Source: Candidatus Nanopelagicaceae bacterium (GTDB taxonomy: Bacteria; Actinomycetota; Actinomycetes; Nanopelagicales; Nanopelagicaceae). From it: a stretch of DNA of 64,000 bases. The notes under the pieces were generated by a model. The model did no database searches and had not been told where the DNA came from. It worked only from the letters and a program-made list of their open reading frames with translations. Positions 18,319 to 23,349 of this stretch are shown here, piece by piece. Within the stretch, counting starts at the first letter, position 1; every line of letters starts with the position of its first letter. A program made the position numbers and the translations under genes. The stretch spans positions 1 to 64,000 of the forward strand of contig SHVK01000005.1 of the NCBI GenBank assembly GCA_009694285.1. The letters run 5' to 3'.

Positions 18319-19173
18319 ATGGAGATTTTGGGCATACCGCAACTCAGATCGCCAATAATGATTTTGGCTTTTTCGGGCTGGAATGATGCTGGTGAGGCCG
18401 CTTCTGCTGCTATAGAACATTTAGCGAGTATTTGGCCAGTTCAAGCCATCGGTGAATTTGATACTGAAGAGTTTTACGATTACCAGAATAATCGACCAAT
18501 GGTCTCAGTTGATGAATCTTTTAACCGCTCACTTACCTGGCCTATAACAACGGTGCGGGGGGTTTCATTACCTAATTACGATCGCGATCTAATTTTAGTC
18601 TCCGGTGTTGAACCTTCCTTGAAGTGGCGCTCATTCGTGGCTCAATTACTTGATCTCGGGGAAGATCTCGACATCTCAATGGTTGTTTGCTTGGGATCAT
18701 TATTGGCCGATGTTCCGCACACTCGCCCAATACCAGTAACTGCAACAGCCGCAAGACCTGAATTTGGTGAACGTCTCGGACTTGAAATGAGTCGCTACGA
18801 AGGCCCAACTGGAATTTTGGGTGCAATACAAGATGCCTGCAACCAAAGAGAGATAGATGCACTATCTATTTGGGCTGCGATTCCACATTACGTTTCTTCT
18901 CCCCCTTGCCCCAAAGCAACTTTGTCACTTCTTAACCATCTAGAAGATTTATTGGAGTTGCCTATCGACTTAGGAGAATTACCCGAAGATGCAAAAGCCT
19001 GGGAAATTGGTGTGGATCAACTTTCGCAAGAAGATTCAGAAATTGCTGATTACGTTAAATCTTTAGAGGAAAGCAAAGATGAAGCAGATCTACCAGAAGC
19101 AACTGGCGAAGCAATCGCTCGTGAATTTGAGAGATATTTGCGTAGACGTGGAGAAGAAAATCCGCAAACTTGA
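18319..19173 (+). CDS. PAC2 (proteasome assembly chaperone-like) family protein
   Basis: A 284-residue protein of the PAC2 family, whose fold is shared by eukaryotic proteasome assembly chaperone 2 and bacterial proteins of unknown role. Typical features are the N-terminal ILAFSGWNDAGEAASAAIEHL, SVVCLGSLLADVPHTRPIPV-like middle part (here MVVCLGSLLADVPHTRP) and the C-terminal IPHYVSSPPCPKATLSLL. The last 60 residues are acidic and probably helical. It is divergent from metH, a common actinobacterial arrangement. No proteasome gene is visible in the window, so a proteasome link is unsupported here. Confidence 0.88.
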   Translation: MEILGIPQLRSPIMILAFSGWNDAGEAASAAIEHLASIWPVQAIGEFDTEEFYDYQNNRPMVSVDESFNRSLTWPITTVRGVSLPNYDRDLILVSGVEPSLKWRSFVAQLLDLGEDLDISMVVCLGSLLADVPHTRPIPVTATAARPEFGERLGLEMSRYEGPTGILGAIQDACNQREIDALSIWAAIPHYVSSPPCPKATLSLLNHLEDLLELPIDLGELPEDAKAWEIGVDQLSQEDSEIADYVKSLEESKDEADLPEATGEAIAREFERYLRRRGEENPQT

Positions 19174-19180
19174 ATCTCAG

Positions 19181-20416
19181 TTAGAGCGCAATCCCTAATA
19201 TCGCATCAATAAATCTTGCCAAAGTCCCAGTATTTGATAGTTTCGAATTTTTTTCTGAGTTTGAATCTGCAATGGCTTTTTCCACCCAAGAATCAATATG
19301 TGCCAAAGCTCTCGTTGTGTCTAGATCATTATTCAGCGCATCTACTACACCTGAGATTGTTGCGTCTATTTCAGGCCCCTCTGGTTTAGCAAAACCTTTT
19401 CGCCACTTAGCTAACCGTTCGGTAGCATTTTGTAATAGTGCATTATCCCATTCGCGATCGCTTCGGTAATGATTAGCAAGCAGGGCTAACCGGATCGCCA
19501 TTGAATCAATGCCCGCTTCTCGAAGTTTTGATACAAAAACCAAATTACCTTTTGACTTACTCATCTTTTCGCCTTGATAGCCGATCATTCCAGTGTGCAT
19601 AAAATATTGAGCAAAAGTTGCGTTGTTCATCACCTCGCCTTGGGCTGCGCACATTTCATGATGTGGAAAAATTAAATCTGAGCCTCCGCCTTGAATTGTG
19701 ATTGAACTCCCTAAATACTCAAGAGCGATAGCGGTGCATTCAATATGCCACCCAGGTCGACCCGCTCCAAAAGGTGAATCCCAACTTGGCTCTCCTTCTC
19801 GATGAGCTCTCCATAACAAGCAATCCAATTTATTCCGTTTACCGACCAAGGTAGGATCCCCACCACGTTCACCAAAAATTTCAATCATCTCAGCAATTGA
19901 TAGATGTGAGCGATTCCCAAAATTTAAATCCGAGGAGATATCAAAATACAAATCATTACCAATCTTATAAACCGCATCTTTCGAGATTAGTTTTTCAATA
20001 GCTTTAATAACAAGCGGAATCGCTTCAACCGCTCCTATGTAATTCTGAGGGGGCAAAACTCGTAGTGCGCTCATATCATCTTTAAAGAGTTCTATTTCCT
20101 TAGTAGCAAGATCTCGCCAATCCAAGTTATCTCTTATTGCACGTTCCAATAAAGGATCATCAACATCGGTAATATTCTGAACGTAAGAAACATTTCTACC
20201 TTGGATCTTCAGTAGCCGTTGTAAGAGATCAAAAGTTAGATAGGTAGCAGCGTGCCCAATGTGTGTTGCATCGTAAGGAGTTATTCCGCAAACGTATAAC
20301 TTAATATCTTTCTCATTTACCTCAGCTATTGATTGTGCTTGGGTGTTCCAGATTTTGACCTTGGAAGCAACTTCAACTTTGTAGTTAGGTACCAAAAGTG
20401 ATGTCCAGCTTTGCAT
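19181..20416 (-). CDS. mshC: L-cysteine:1D-myo-inositol 2-amino-2-deoxy-glucopyranoside ligase (mycothiol synthesis)
   Basis: Joins cysteine to GlcN-inositol with ATP, the third enzymatic step toward mycothiol, the actinobacterial thiol. The 411-residue protein is a cysteinyl-tRNA synthetase relative: zinc/cysteine ligands C43 (YVCGITPYDA), C227 (GWHIECTAIA) and H252, the HIGH signature at 52-55 and KMSKSKG at 284-290. The N-terminal MQSW and the GERGGDPTLVGKRNKLDCLL stretch separate MshC from true CysS, which also has a longer C-terminal anticodon domain. It has a leaderless-type promoter and ends eight bases from the convergent PAC2 gene. Confidence 0.93.
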   Translation of the reverse strand: MQSWTSLLVPNYKVEVASKVKIWNTQAQSIAEVNEKDIKLYVCGITPYDATHIGHAATYLTFDLLQRLLKIQGRNVSYVQNITDVDDPLLERAIRDNLDWRDLATKEIELFKDDMSALRVLPPQNYIGAVEAIPLVIKAIEKLISKDAVYKIGNDLYFDISSDLNFGNRSHLSIAEMIEIFGERGGDPTLVGKRNKLDCLLWRAHREGEPSWDSPFGAGRPGWHIECTAIALEYLGSSITIQGGGSDLIFPHHEMCAAQGEVMNNATFAQYFMHTGMIGYQGEKMSKSKGNLVFVSKLREAGIDSMAIRLALLANHYRSDREWDNALLQNATERLAKWRKGFAKPEGPEIDATISGVVDALNNDLDTTRALAHIDSWVEKAIADSNSEKNSKLSNTGTLARFIDAILGIAL

Positions 20417-20429: not shown

Positions 20430-21128
20430 CTAAACCGGAGGCCAGGGAATCGCAGGCCAATCCTCGGAGGGGAAAGGAAATCTGCCTGAATCTAAAAGTT
20501 CTAGGGTTCGTTGCCTCGTGATCTCTTTCTCATCTTTGGTCAGCAAATTTGCAATTAAATCGCTCCATTTTCCGAAATTCGAGATAAAACTTTCCAGTTG
20601 TGCAATCTCTATTTGATTTAGTGGTCTTCCCCGCCACTGCCATAGAACTGTGCGTAACTTATCTTCGACATGAAATGTCACTCCGTGATCGCAACCAAGT
20701 ATTTCACCTTCTTGTGTTGGCAAAAGGTGTCCAATTTTGCGATCAGTATTATTGATAATGGCATCAAACAGTGCCATCTTTCGCAATCTTTCATCATCAC
20801 TTTGTGAAAATTCAATAATTTCAAAAGATTCATCAACTTCGATCCAATGTTGCACCATGCCTAATCCAAATGGACCTTCACGCAAAGTTGTAAAAGGAAC
20901 TATGTTGAAATTCATGAACTCACTAGTCAAATACGCGGCTACTTCGCGTCCAGCTAAAGATCCCTCTTCGAAATCCCAAAGTGGGCGCTCGCCTGAGATT
21001 GGTTTGTAAATAACATTGATCTCTGTCTCCTCTAGCACCCCAAAAAGAGTTGCATTGGAAGCATCAACTAACCTCCCCAATATCTCTATCGGTTTGTTAG
21101 TTATCGCGGCTTTAACGTCGGTAACCAT
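20430..21128 (-). CDS. SCO1664-family protein, probable PI3/4-kinase-fold kinase
   Basis: A 232-residue member of the family defined as TIGR03843, distantly related to phosphatidylinositol 3-/4-kinases and otherwise uncharacterised. Kinase-like residues are K42 (IYKPISGERP), E62 (GREVAAYL), a catalytic-loop-like D122/N127/D129-R130 (FDAIINNTDRKIGHL) and a metal-binding-type D147 (GCDHG). Its start overlaps the stop of the DUF3090 gene by 17 bases. With DUF3090 and the phosphatase gene upstream it forms a conserved actinobacterial trio. The substrate is unknown; adjacency to mshC, an inositol-glycoside enzyme, is suggestive only. Confidence 0.85.
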   Translation of the reverse strand: MVTDVKAAITNKPIEILGRLVDASNATLFGVLEETEINVIYKPISGERPLWDFEEGSLAGREVAAYLTSEFMNFNIVPFTTLREGPFGLGMVQHWIEVDESFEIIEFSQSDDERLRKMALFDAIINNTDRKIGHLLPTQEGEILGCDHGVTFHVEDKLRTVLWQWRGRPLNQIEIAQLESFISNFGKWSDLIANLLTKDEKEITRQRTLELLDSGRFPFPSEDWPAIPWPPV

Positions 21129-21636
21129 TAGCTCTCGGACACAAGTGCGCTGAAGGGTCTAAGGGATTTCCACAAAATTGACAAGGAGGTCGACCCGATT
21201 TTACCAATGCATTTGAACGCAAAGCAAAACTTTTCGCCATGCTGGAAGTTAATGTTACTCTAAAAAGATCAGGCCCTTCAGTAATCTGGTGATCAACAAC
21301 TTCTTCCGATTCCCCTGCTTGGGCTTCAATTATTAAATGTTGCGTTTGCGGATCCCACGCTATAGATATTACCCCGACTCGGAAATCATCCATCAAAGGT
21401 AGTTCTAGCGGAGCATCATCAACTTTGAGTACAGCTGATTTTGGAGGCAAATTCATCTCTTTAAGCAGATTAAGAATTCTTTCAGCAAGTAATGCAACTT
21501 GGCCTTTTTCCAAACTTATGGAGGAAATTTTAATTCCTTCTTTGGCTTGTAGATAGAAAGTTCTTTCGCCTGGCATACCAACAGTTCCAGCAACAAATCG
21601 TTCTGGATTTTGGAAATCAAAAATATTTCTACTCAT
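21112..21636 (-). CDS. DUF3090 family protein with C-terminal zinc-ribbon-like motif
   Basis: A 174-residue protein of the DUF3090/TIGR03847 family, the middle member of the trio. The N-terminus (NPERFVAGTVGMPGERTFYL) is the family signature and suggests a beta-rich domain. The C-terminus has C152-x2-C155 and H164/C166 ahead of the conserved PRANGYRR ending, resembling a small zinc site. It overlaps the phosphatase gene by four bases upstream (ATGA) and the kinase-like gene by 17 bases downstream, so all three are translated as a unit. No function has been assigned to the family. Confidence 0.87.
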   Translation of the reverse strand: MSRNIFDFQNPERFVAGTVGMPGERTFYLQAKEGIKISSISLEKGQVALLAERILNLLKEMNLPPKSAVLKVDDAPLELPLMDDFRVGVISIAWDPQTQHLIIEAQAGESEEVVDHQITEGPDLFRVTLTSSMAKSFALRSNALVKSGRPPCQFCGNPLDPSAHLCPRANGYRR

Positions 21637-22319
21637 GCTCCCCCACCATCGCCTTTGCCGCCACCAAGACCAGCCAATTCTTTATTCTCTAGCAACTTAC
21701 TTAAAGGAGTCCCAGATTCATTCATTGAAATCAGGGCAGTTCTTCGTAATTCCTCTTGTTTTTCTACTTTTACGATCGAAATAGATGCTGGGTCAATCAC
21801 TAATTTTTGGAAATTATCAATAGGTAAATCTAAAATCTTTGCAATGGCCAATTTAATAATATCGCCATGACTAACAATAATTACATTTTCATCATCATTT
21901 AAACTGCCAATAATTTGATCCAATCCTTTTGATACTCGATCAAACATCGCTTTAAAACTTTCACCTTCTGGAAATGTCACGTTCGATGGTTCCTTTTGGA
22001 TTTCTTTCCATAATGGTTCTTTTGATAATTTGCTTAATTTCTGCCCGGTCCAACTACCGTAATCCGATTCTATAAAATTATGGTCTATCTCAATAGTTGA
22101 TTTGCCGTGGGCTCTATGCCAAGGAGTTATGGTCTCAAGGCACCTTTGTAGCGGGCTGGAAATAACTCGTTTAATTTCGATTTCACCAATTCGGGAAACC
22201 AACCCTTGTGCTTGAGCAAAGCCAACATCATCCAAAGCGATTCCGGGGGCTTGGCCGGCAAGAACTCCTGCAGTATTTGCAGTACTTCTTGAGTGTCGCA
22301 CCAAAATAATGCTTGCCAA
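21633..22319 (-). CDS. MSMEG_4193-family histidine phosphatase
   Basis: A 228-residue phosphoglycerate-mutase-superfamily enzyme of the TIGR03848 subgroup. Catalytic residues are R8-H9 (LVRHSRSTAN), R58 (SSPLQR), E83 (IESDYGSW) and H150 (VSHGD). Start is a TTG at 22319 supported by GGGAGG four bases upstream. As first gene of the trio with a probable kinase, it is thought to remove the phosphate the partner adds; this is the published family hypothesis, not shown here. The last ten residues are Gly-rich. Confidence 0.88.
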   Translation of the reverse strand: MASIILVRHSRSTANTAGVLAGQAPGIALDDVGFAQAQGLVSRIGEIEIKRVISSPLQRCLETITPWHRAHGKSTIEIDHNFIESDYGSWTGQKLSKLSKEPLWKEIQKEPSNVTFPEGESFKAMFDRVSKGLDQIIGSLNDDENVIIVSHGDIIKLAIAKILDLPIDNFQKLVIDPASISIVKVEKQEELRRTALISMNESGTPLSKLLENKELAGLGGGKGDGGGA

Positions 22320-22392: not shown

Positions 22393-23349
22393 GTGGGGTG
22401 GAAGCAGTTGGAGCAACGACAACTAGGCAATAGTGGATTGCGCGTCTCTGCGATTGGGCTCGGCACCATGACCTGGGGCCGCGATACGGATGAGCATGAA
22501 GCCGCTGAACAGTTGCGCATCTTCACCGAATCTGGCGGCACCTTTATCGATACAGCTGCAAGTTACTGTGATGGAGATAGCGAAAGGGTTATCGGCGGGC
22601 TAATCGGAACGATGATTCCGCGCGAAGATGCCGTAATCGCCACAAAAGCCGGAATAGTTGGACGTGAAATTGATAATTCGCGAGGAGCGCTCCTGCGAGA
22701 TTTAGATGAATCATTAAAAAGATTGCATACGACTTATGTTGATTTATGGCAGATACATGCATGGGATCCGACTGTAAGAGTTGAAGAAACTCTTTCTGCT
22801 ATGGATATTGCAGTTAACTCTGGTCGCGTTAGATATGTGGGGATTTCGAATTTTTCAGGATGGCAAAGTGCGCGCGCTATAACATTGCAAAGTTCAGGGG
22901 CTGGGCGTGCCGAAATTTGTGCAACTCACAATGAGTACTCACTCCTCAACCGGAAGATTGAGAAAGAAGTTTTACCCTGTGCCCAAAATCTAGGAGTAGG
23001 TGTTTTAGCTTGGTCACCATTGGGTCGTGGAGTATTGACTGGAAAATATCAAAATGGAATTCCGGCTGATTCACGTGGAGCAAGTCCACACCTAGGACCA
23101 TTTGTAGCAAACTATCTTGATGCTCGATCTAAGCAAATTGTTACAGCAGTAAGCACCGCTGCTGATGGATTAGGAGCTGCGCCTCTTGAGATCGCATTAA
23201 GTTGGGTAAGGGACGCACCAGGAATTTCAAGCGCCATTATTGGTGCTCGAACTTCTGCGCAATTGCGCGGCGCTTTAAGATCAAATGATTTAGTTTTGCC
23301 TGATCTTGTACGCTCAGCTTTGAATGATATTTCTGAGGCAGGCGATTGA
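22393..23349 (+). CDS. Aldo/keto reductase
   Basis: A 318-residue NADPH-dependent oxidoreductase of the AKR superfamily (YghZ/perakine-reductase-like). The tetrad is visible: D52-type Asp in FIDTAASYCDG with Tyr, Lys in VIATKAG and His in WQIHAWDP. The (beta/alpha)8 barrel ends with the cofactor stretch AIIGARTSAQLRGAL. Two starts are possible, GTG 22393 or TTG 22408 (beginning with the family-typical EQRQLGNSGLRVS). It is divergent from the trio and overlaps the DUF5703 gene downstream by 26 bases. The substrate is unknown. Confidence 0.9.
   Translation: MGWKQLEQRQLGNSGLRVSAIGLGTMTWGRDTDEHEAAEQLRIFTESGGTFIDTAASYCDGDSERVIGGLIGTMIPREDAVIATKAGIVGREIDNSRGALLRDLDESLKRLHTTYVDLWQIHAWDPTVRVEETLSAMDIAVNSGRVRYVGISNFSGWQSARAITLQSSGAGRAEICATHNEYSLLNRKIEKEVLPCAQNLGVGVLAWSPLGRGVLTGKYQNGIPADSRGASPHLGPFVANYLDARSKQIVTAVSTAADGLGAAPLEIALSWVRDAPGISSAIIGARTSAQLRGALRSNDLVLPDLVRSALNDISEAGD

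Follow-up and report, generated by a model that had tools for sequence, protein, structure and literature searches.

A kinase-like protein of the SCO1664 family, a DUF3090 protein and a histidine phosphatase are encoded together in many actinobacteria. In Mycobacterium tuberculosis we take the trio to be Rv2133c/Rv2134c/Rv2135c, with Rv2134c presumably being the DUF3090 gene. The linkage of SCO1664 with mshC and a possible role in mycothiol or inositol metabolism were published in 2013, where the linkage was termed invariable and mycothiol was said to occur, apparently, in actinobacteria alone (PMC4255298). Rv2135c, the M. tuberculosis relative of the phosphatase, is a weak, tetrameric acid phosphatase without phosphoglycerate mutase activity; given its Km values of 8-14 mM for the test substrates, its true substrate was probably absent from the test set (PMC3866925). 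The CxxC..HxC motif of DUF3090 has been noted before (PMC9425974), and Rv2134c mutants showed altered sensitivity to sub-inhibitory rifampicin in a Mycobacterium bovis BCG screen (-1.42, p < 0.001; PMC11329110). A described function for the trio families was not found in the open-licence PubMed Central literature. The first-pass annotation of the DNA analyzed here had called the trio its best candidate for an undescribed system, which holds for its function, while the families (as NCBIfam models) and the linkage to mshC (PMC4255298) are already on record.

Locus layout, catalytic residues and predicted folds

The window, i.e. the whole stretch of 64,000 nucleotides that was analyzed, harbors the trio at positions 20430-22319 of the minus strand in the order phosphatase, DUF3090, kinase-like protein (Table 1). 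According to the ORF list and the sequence, the junctions overlap by 4 nt, as an ATGA shared by the phosphatase stop and the DUF3090 start, and by 17 nt. The phosphatase gene starts with TTG, with a strong AGGGAGG-type ribosome site just upstream. Three of the encoded proteins scored above the cut-offs of their families: the kinase-like protein reached 265.1 bits against TIGR03843 (curated cut-off 172.4; positions 4-253 of 253), DUF3090 189.7 bits against TIGR03847 (cut-off 117.25) and MshC 562.7 bits against TIGR03447 (cut-off 485). The phosphatase obtained 202.6 bits against TIGR03848, 1.3 bits under the curated cut-off of 203.85, with a full-length match to what is by far its best family and a conserved operon position. 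The PAC2 neighbor recurs in loci L031-L034, L037 and L038.

Table 1. Coordinates of the trio, its motifs and the adjacent genes in the window.
Feature	Position	Strand	Basis or remark
PAC2-family protein	18319..19173	+	convergent with mshC; conserved Actinomycetia neighbor
mshC, mycothiol cysteine ligase	19181..20416	-	TIGR03447 equivalog; 13 nt downstream of kinase gene
Kinase-like protein (TIGR03843, SCO1664 family)	20430..21128	-	profile and model; predicted PI4K type II / Fam20-like fold
Kinase D147 codon, second metal-binding Asp (D-x-G motif)	20688..20690	-	alignments
Kinase catalytic loop D122...N127-x-D129-R-K-x-x-H134	20727..20765	-	invariant in 48 sequences and 50 further ones
DUF3090 (PF11290 / TIGR03847)	21112..21636	-	profile match; PUR/PC4-like fold predicted, tentative; zinc-type tail
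DUF3090 C-x2-C...H-x-C tail (C152, C155, H164, C166)	21139..21183	-	alignment
Histidine phosphatase, branch 1 (TIGR03848 / MSMEG_4193 family)	21633..22319	-	profile match, PF00300 143.8 bits; R8-H9, R59, E84, H151
Aldo/keto reductase	22393..23349	+	divergent neighbor; nothing ties it to the module

In an alignment of 48 relatives of the kinase-like protein, K42, D122, N127, D129, R130, K131, H134, D147, R159, T160 and W163 were invariant. The catalytic residues were likewise invariant in 50 further copies spanning Actinomycetota to Chloroflexota, namely 46 copies at loci of Chloroflexota or Rokubacteriota plus four copies of Arthrobacter, Kocuria and Citricoccus. The structure model of the protein (pLDDT 94, pTM 0.92) was compared with the PDB using Foldseek, and the best match was PI4K-II alpha (E 1.5e-8, TM 0.68), followed by PI4K-II beta, Fam20C/A and CtkA. 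By sequence, the family profile matched PI4K-II beta (E 1.6e-4) and Fam20A (E 5.6e-4). The Pfam family of PI3/PI4-kinases, PF00454, was matched by 43 of the 48 relatives (E up to 0.1; best 6.7e-14), the window protein itself scoring 15.3 bits, under the gathering score of 27.1. Profile and model together suggest that the protein is placed nearest to the type II phosphatidylinositol 4-kinases and Fam20. The invariant D-R-K-x-x-H loop is a hallmark of the SCO1664 family, with H134 at the position where the aligned PI4K-II has Asn; as this histidine replaces the usual Mg-binding Asn, the fold might serve a reaction other than that of a kinase, such as AMPylation or glutamylation.

The phosphatase satisfies the pattern of branch 1 histidine phosphatases (RH motif, second Arg, acid, second His), and the corresponding residues (Table 1) are intact in the window copy and 98-100% conserved in the alignment. 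In DUF3090, C152, C155 and H164 are invariant and C166 is at least 90% conserved. In a second alignment set this tail was gapped in 10 of 41 copies, and therefore zinc binding would not always be needed.

For DUF3090, a sequence search for relatives of known structure yielded nothing convincing, and comparison with a viral structure library was uninformative. The ten best PDB matches of its model (pLDDT 88.8, pTM 0.80) were all to PUR-alpha (repeats I-II), with E-values of 2e-3 to 2.7e-2, probabilities of 0.66-1.0 and a TM of about 0.4; past the tenth match the E-value rose to 0.06 and the probability fell to 0.12. The model has a beta4-alpha-linker-beta3(4)-alpha plan, tentatively like that of PUR-alpha and the bacterial Bpur (PUR/PC4-like), and it agrees with the published PUR/PC4 topology except that its second half has three strands instead of four (PMC11042805). 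Unlike PUR-alpha, DUF3090 bears a zinc-type tail, and the two share a TM of just about 0.4 and no detectable sequence similarity. DUF3090 thus models best on PUR/PC4-type nucleic-acid-binding domains, a reading that stays tentative because it comes without sequence support.

The first-pass annotation had described three translationally overlapped genes beside mshC, a PI-kinase-fold protein with K42, D122, N127, D129 and D147 kept, a DUF3090 protein with a zinc-type C-x2-C...H-x-C tail and a histidine phosphatase with all catalytic residues. These descriptions were borne out, in the case of the fold by profile and predicted structure. It had further held that inactive enzymes would speak against a kinase/phosphatase cycle; judged from the conserved positions, the residues of both enzymes look intact.

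Distribution and separability of the three parts

To describe the distribution of the trio, 160 genomes drawn across Actinomycetota were used as a phylum sample. Kinase and DUF3090 occurred in the identical 73 genomes, far beyond chance, and a clear phosphatase ortholog was obtained in 72 of them; in the 73rd (G158), DUF3090 sits at a contig start. The trio was found in every class-mate within this sample and in other Actinomycetota classes. In the sample of the window's own family, both kinase and MshC were present in 15/15 genomes of 1.2-2.2 Mb, two of the MshC matches lying just under the curated cut-off. The wide conservation and the retention in a compact genome that had been pointed out initially are thus confirmed, the trio being kept at about 1.3 Mb.

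GTDB contigs were scanned with the kinase as query, so that only kinase-bearing loci could appear. The kinase was detected in Chloroflexota (Anaerolineae including Bellilinea caldifistulae, Roseilinea and Thermoflexus; Chloroflexia; Dehalococcoidia; Thermomicrobiales) and also in two Rokubacteriota bins. Most of the 80 scanned loci had the order phosphatase-DUF3090-kinase. Phosphatase-kinase pairs without DUF3090 were obtained from Arthrobacter, Kocuria and two Citricoccus loci, DUF3090-kinase pairs without a phosphatase inside the fetched flank from a set of Anaerolineae loci and others related to them, and the kinase stood alone in five of the 80 loci; flank or contig ends may limit some of these cases. 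In Corynebacterium glutamicum, which served as control, kinase and phosphatase scored over the cut-off and DUF3090 was apparently absent. Because DUF3090-less pairs, phosphatase-less pairs and lone kinases occur, the kinase is the constant part of the module across the kinase-queried loci, which argues against DUF3090 as an obligate substrate. Likewise, the phosphatase is not an obligate eraser, since there are lone kinases and DUF3090-kinase pairs with no phosphatase inside the fetched flanks.

A consistent partner gene outside Actinomycetia was not found, neither in 40 loci plus the window nor in 47 Chloroflexota/Rokubacteriota loci, where the neighbors were varied housekeeping genes. Several local arrangements were observed. 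A second phosphatase-kinase pair without DUF3090 lies at about 8949-10266 of L036 (G008:C17:144000-163999), about 245 kb from the complete trio of G008. In the Roseilinea/Thermoflexales-type loci L114, L120, L127 and L134, at about 900-2140, a divergent cysteinyl-tRNA synthetase-like gene is located about 1 kb upstream of DUF3090-kinase, which is probably one inherited arrangement; MshC is a paralogue of cysteinyl-tRNA synthetase. In the Anaerolineae loci L112, L116, L126, L133, L140 and L177, the trio is preceded by an AAA+ (RarA-like) gene and followed by a homoserine-dehydrogenase-like gene, both named by eye from their sequences.

Relation of the trio to the mycothiol genes

In the phylum sample, MshC exceeded the curated cut-off in 13/160 genomes. 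Proteins were called MshC-like at 390 bits or more and MshA-like at 290 bits or more, thresholds that were chosen after the score lists had been viewed. An MshC-like protein was detected in 18 further genomes; 17 of them scored 390-446 bits, and G124 was included for a match of 285 bits that is cut by a contig end. All 31 genomes with MshC or MshC-like proteins carry the trio, and 42 of the 73 trio genomes are without an MshC-like protein. MshA-like proteins were present in 67/73 trio genomes vs 5/87 others. With the MshA of the window's own genome, relatives from beyond Actinomycetia share 40-48% identity, and G046 and G058 have MshA-like proteins at 417-422 bits yet no TIGR03848 ortholog. 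In the non-Actinomycetia families f27, f45, f42, f36, f37 and f21, MshC-like proteins mostly at 391-446 bits, under the cut-off, were accompanied by MshD over the cut-off and MshA-like proteins, and judged from these matches a mycothiol pathway is likely to exist there. The window's own genome (G000) encodes MshA (C4:7111-8331, 592.8 bits) and a clear MshC, with no MshD over the cut-off (best 34.9 bits; assembly 86% complete).

Within Actinomycetia, a class sample of 198 genomes and a sample of 140 genomes from family f79 were both scored on kinase and mshC. In the class sample, the kinase was found in 187/198 genomes and mshC over the cut-off in 177/198; the seven f79 genomes sampled from genera g179 and g186 (7/7) were devoid of kinase, mshC and a recognisable mshA. 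In f79, 35 genomes had the kinase, all of them with mshC, 47 had mshC without the kinase and 58 had neither (mshC at 449 bits or more). Thus, mshC was present in 35/35 kinase-positive vs 47/105 kinase-negative genomes (nominal Fisher p 1.9e-10), and 47 of the 82 mshC-bearing genomes were without the kinase. The co-occurrence in f79 is not taken as proof, because a CysS tree leaves just three supported independent contrasts within f79, which point in the same direction or show no difference, never the opposite, and have no power. In G183, G294 and G333 the trio and mshC seem to have been lost together, but this reading was rejected, as mshA is still there and the assemblies are broken, which makes a gap likely. 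MshC exceeded the cut-off in 78/140 and MshA in 0/140 f79 genomes, so that this family either uses another MshA or has lost the first step; matches of 250-370 bits in this family were not read as MshA because they are also present without the trio.

Proximity of the genes was analyzed as well. No mshC was found within 1.5 kb beyond the kinase at ten f79 loci, nor within 4 kb of phosphatase-kinase in Arthrobacter, Kocuria and Citricoccus, and in G008 mshC lies on a different contig from the complete trio. The linkage to mshC is therefore not invariable. Co-occurrence of the trio with msh genes had been proposed as a check of a mycothiol-related role, and the trio turned out to be neither confined to mshC organisms nor present in all of them. 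A mycothiol-specific role was therefore rejected, given the 42 trio genomes without an MshC-like protein, the Chloroflexota and Rokubacteriota carriers and the 47 f79 genomes with mshC and no kinase. Carriers without MshC and the unlinked mshC in f79, Arthrobacter, Kocuria, Citricoccus and G008 are what the first-pass annotation had itself named as refuting its mycothiol idea. We read the trio as reaching beyond mycothiol, with a secondary connection being possible in Actinomycetia.

A kinase-centred reading, its rivals and known systems

Taken together, we give a probability of about 0.5 to the joint reading that kinase and phosphatase are a writer-eraser pair with DUF3090 as optional adaptor and a substrate outside mycothiol synthesis. 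The SCO1664-family protein would be active as an ATP-dependent phosphotransferase and belong to the PI4K-II/Fam20/HipA type, as sequence and model indicate, and the phosphatase from the overlapping gene may remove the same phosphate, gene coupling pointing to one substrate shared by both enzymes. DUF3090 might bring an enzyme to this substrate, or sense a nucleic-acid or metal cue. The substrate would be something common to several Actinomycetota classes and Chloroflexota and not a mycothiol intermediate, and the adjacency of mshC would be a gene-order feature of Actinomycetia that may reflect co-regulation. The association with mshC in Actinomycetia is not accounted for by the writer-eraser reading and counts against it.

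Among the alternatives, a bacterial phosphoinositide switch, with an inositol lipid or an inositol phosphate as target of the kinase and with the phosphatase undoing the modification, is unlikely. In its favor, the nearest fold and sequence relatives are the PI4K-II lipid kinases, and trio genomes tend to have MshA-like proteins, MshA being an enzyme that uses inositol phosphate. However, Fam20 and CtkA are almost as close and phosphorylate proteins or sugars, and C. glutamicum retains kinase and phosphatase while corynebacteria are reportedly without inoA (PMC4255298). We further regard it as rather improbable that the trio serves mycothiol-linked physiology, such as MshC regulation or thiol stress, in Actinomycetia only, where an older module would have been recruited later. 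Almost all kinase-positive genomes of the class and family samples have mshC, in f79 even with unlinked loci, but after correction for phylogeny the three contrasts without power remain, and the linkage has been lost in several lineages.

That DUF3090 is the phosphorylated protein toggled by the kinase/phosphatase pair, as the first-pass annotation had suggested, agrees with the identical distribution of kinase and DUF3090 over 73 genomes and with the overlap of their genes. This idea was weakened by the phosphatase-kinase pairs that persist without DUF3090 in Arthrobacter, Kocuria, Citricoccus and the second copy of G008, as well as by C. glutamicum, where DUF3090 is apparently absent too and both enzymes are kept, and it has become doubtful. 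There is a similarly small chance that the trio is a widespread bacterial writer-eraser system for the phosphorylation of RNA or a ribonucleoprotein, in which the nucleic acid is presented by a PUR-fold zinc protein to a PI4K-II-like kinase and a histidine phosphatase.

Very improbable is the proposal that the phosphatase is MshA2, dephosphorylating the MshA product GlcNAc-inositol-phosphate under regulation by kinase and DUF3090: the operon with mshC, an MshA2 phosphatase step named without gene identifier in the literature as far as its accessible parts go, the trio in 31/31 MshC or MshC-like genomes (one on a contig-cut match), the MshA-like proteins of trio genomes (67/73 vs 5/87) and the 40-48% identity of the non-Actinomycetia MshA relatives would fit, but the Chloroflexota and Rokubacteriota carriers, the 47 kinase-less f79 genomes with mshC (where the kinase and not the phosphatase was searched), the MshA-like proteins of G046 and G058 without a TIGR03848 ortholog and the unaccounted-for kinase-DUF3090 pairs without phosphatase oppose it. 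If true, it would supply the gene for a mycothiol synthesis step that those parts of the literature give without a gene identifier.

The module of kinase, phosphatase and optional DUF3090 is present in all class-mates of the phylum sample, other Actinomycetota classes and Chloroflexota, and persists at genome sizes of about 1.3 Mb. Its non-specificity for mycothiol, the constant kinase and the likeness to PI4K-II turn a vague linkage into testable claims. We believe the following to be new: the PI4K-II assignment that profile and model suggest, the PUR-like fold tentatively modelled for DUF3090, the separability of the three parts, the extension to Chloroflexota and the testing of the mycothiol role.

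Compared with known systems, PI4K2A/PI4K2B (type II PI 4-kinases) are the best structural and profile match to the predicted kinase and have the N-x-D-R and D-x-G motifs in common with it. Unlike these enzymes, the window kinase is smaller and has His for Asn, and nothing points to insertion into membranes or to activity on lipids. Fam20C/Fam20A and HipA/CtkA, whose targets are secreted proteins or sugars or which serve as toxins or effectors, fall into the same atypical kinase fold group according to Foldseek and Pfam, with weaker sequence similarity; in contrast to them, the window kinase is operonic, apparently cytoplasmic and coupled to a phosphatase. With respect to the TIGR03843/TIGR03847 (PF11290)/TIGR03848 set, the window genes belong to the same families in the same order and lie near mshC as in several other Actinomycetia, so that the window copy shows no difference and is an ordinary member of the set in a small actinobacterial genome.
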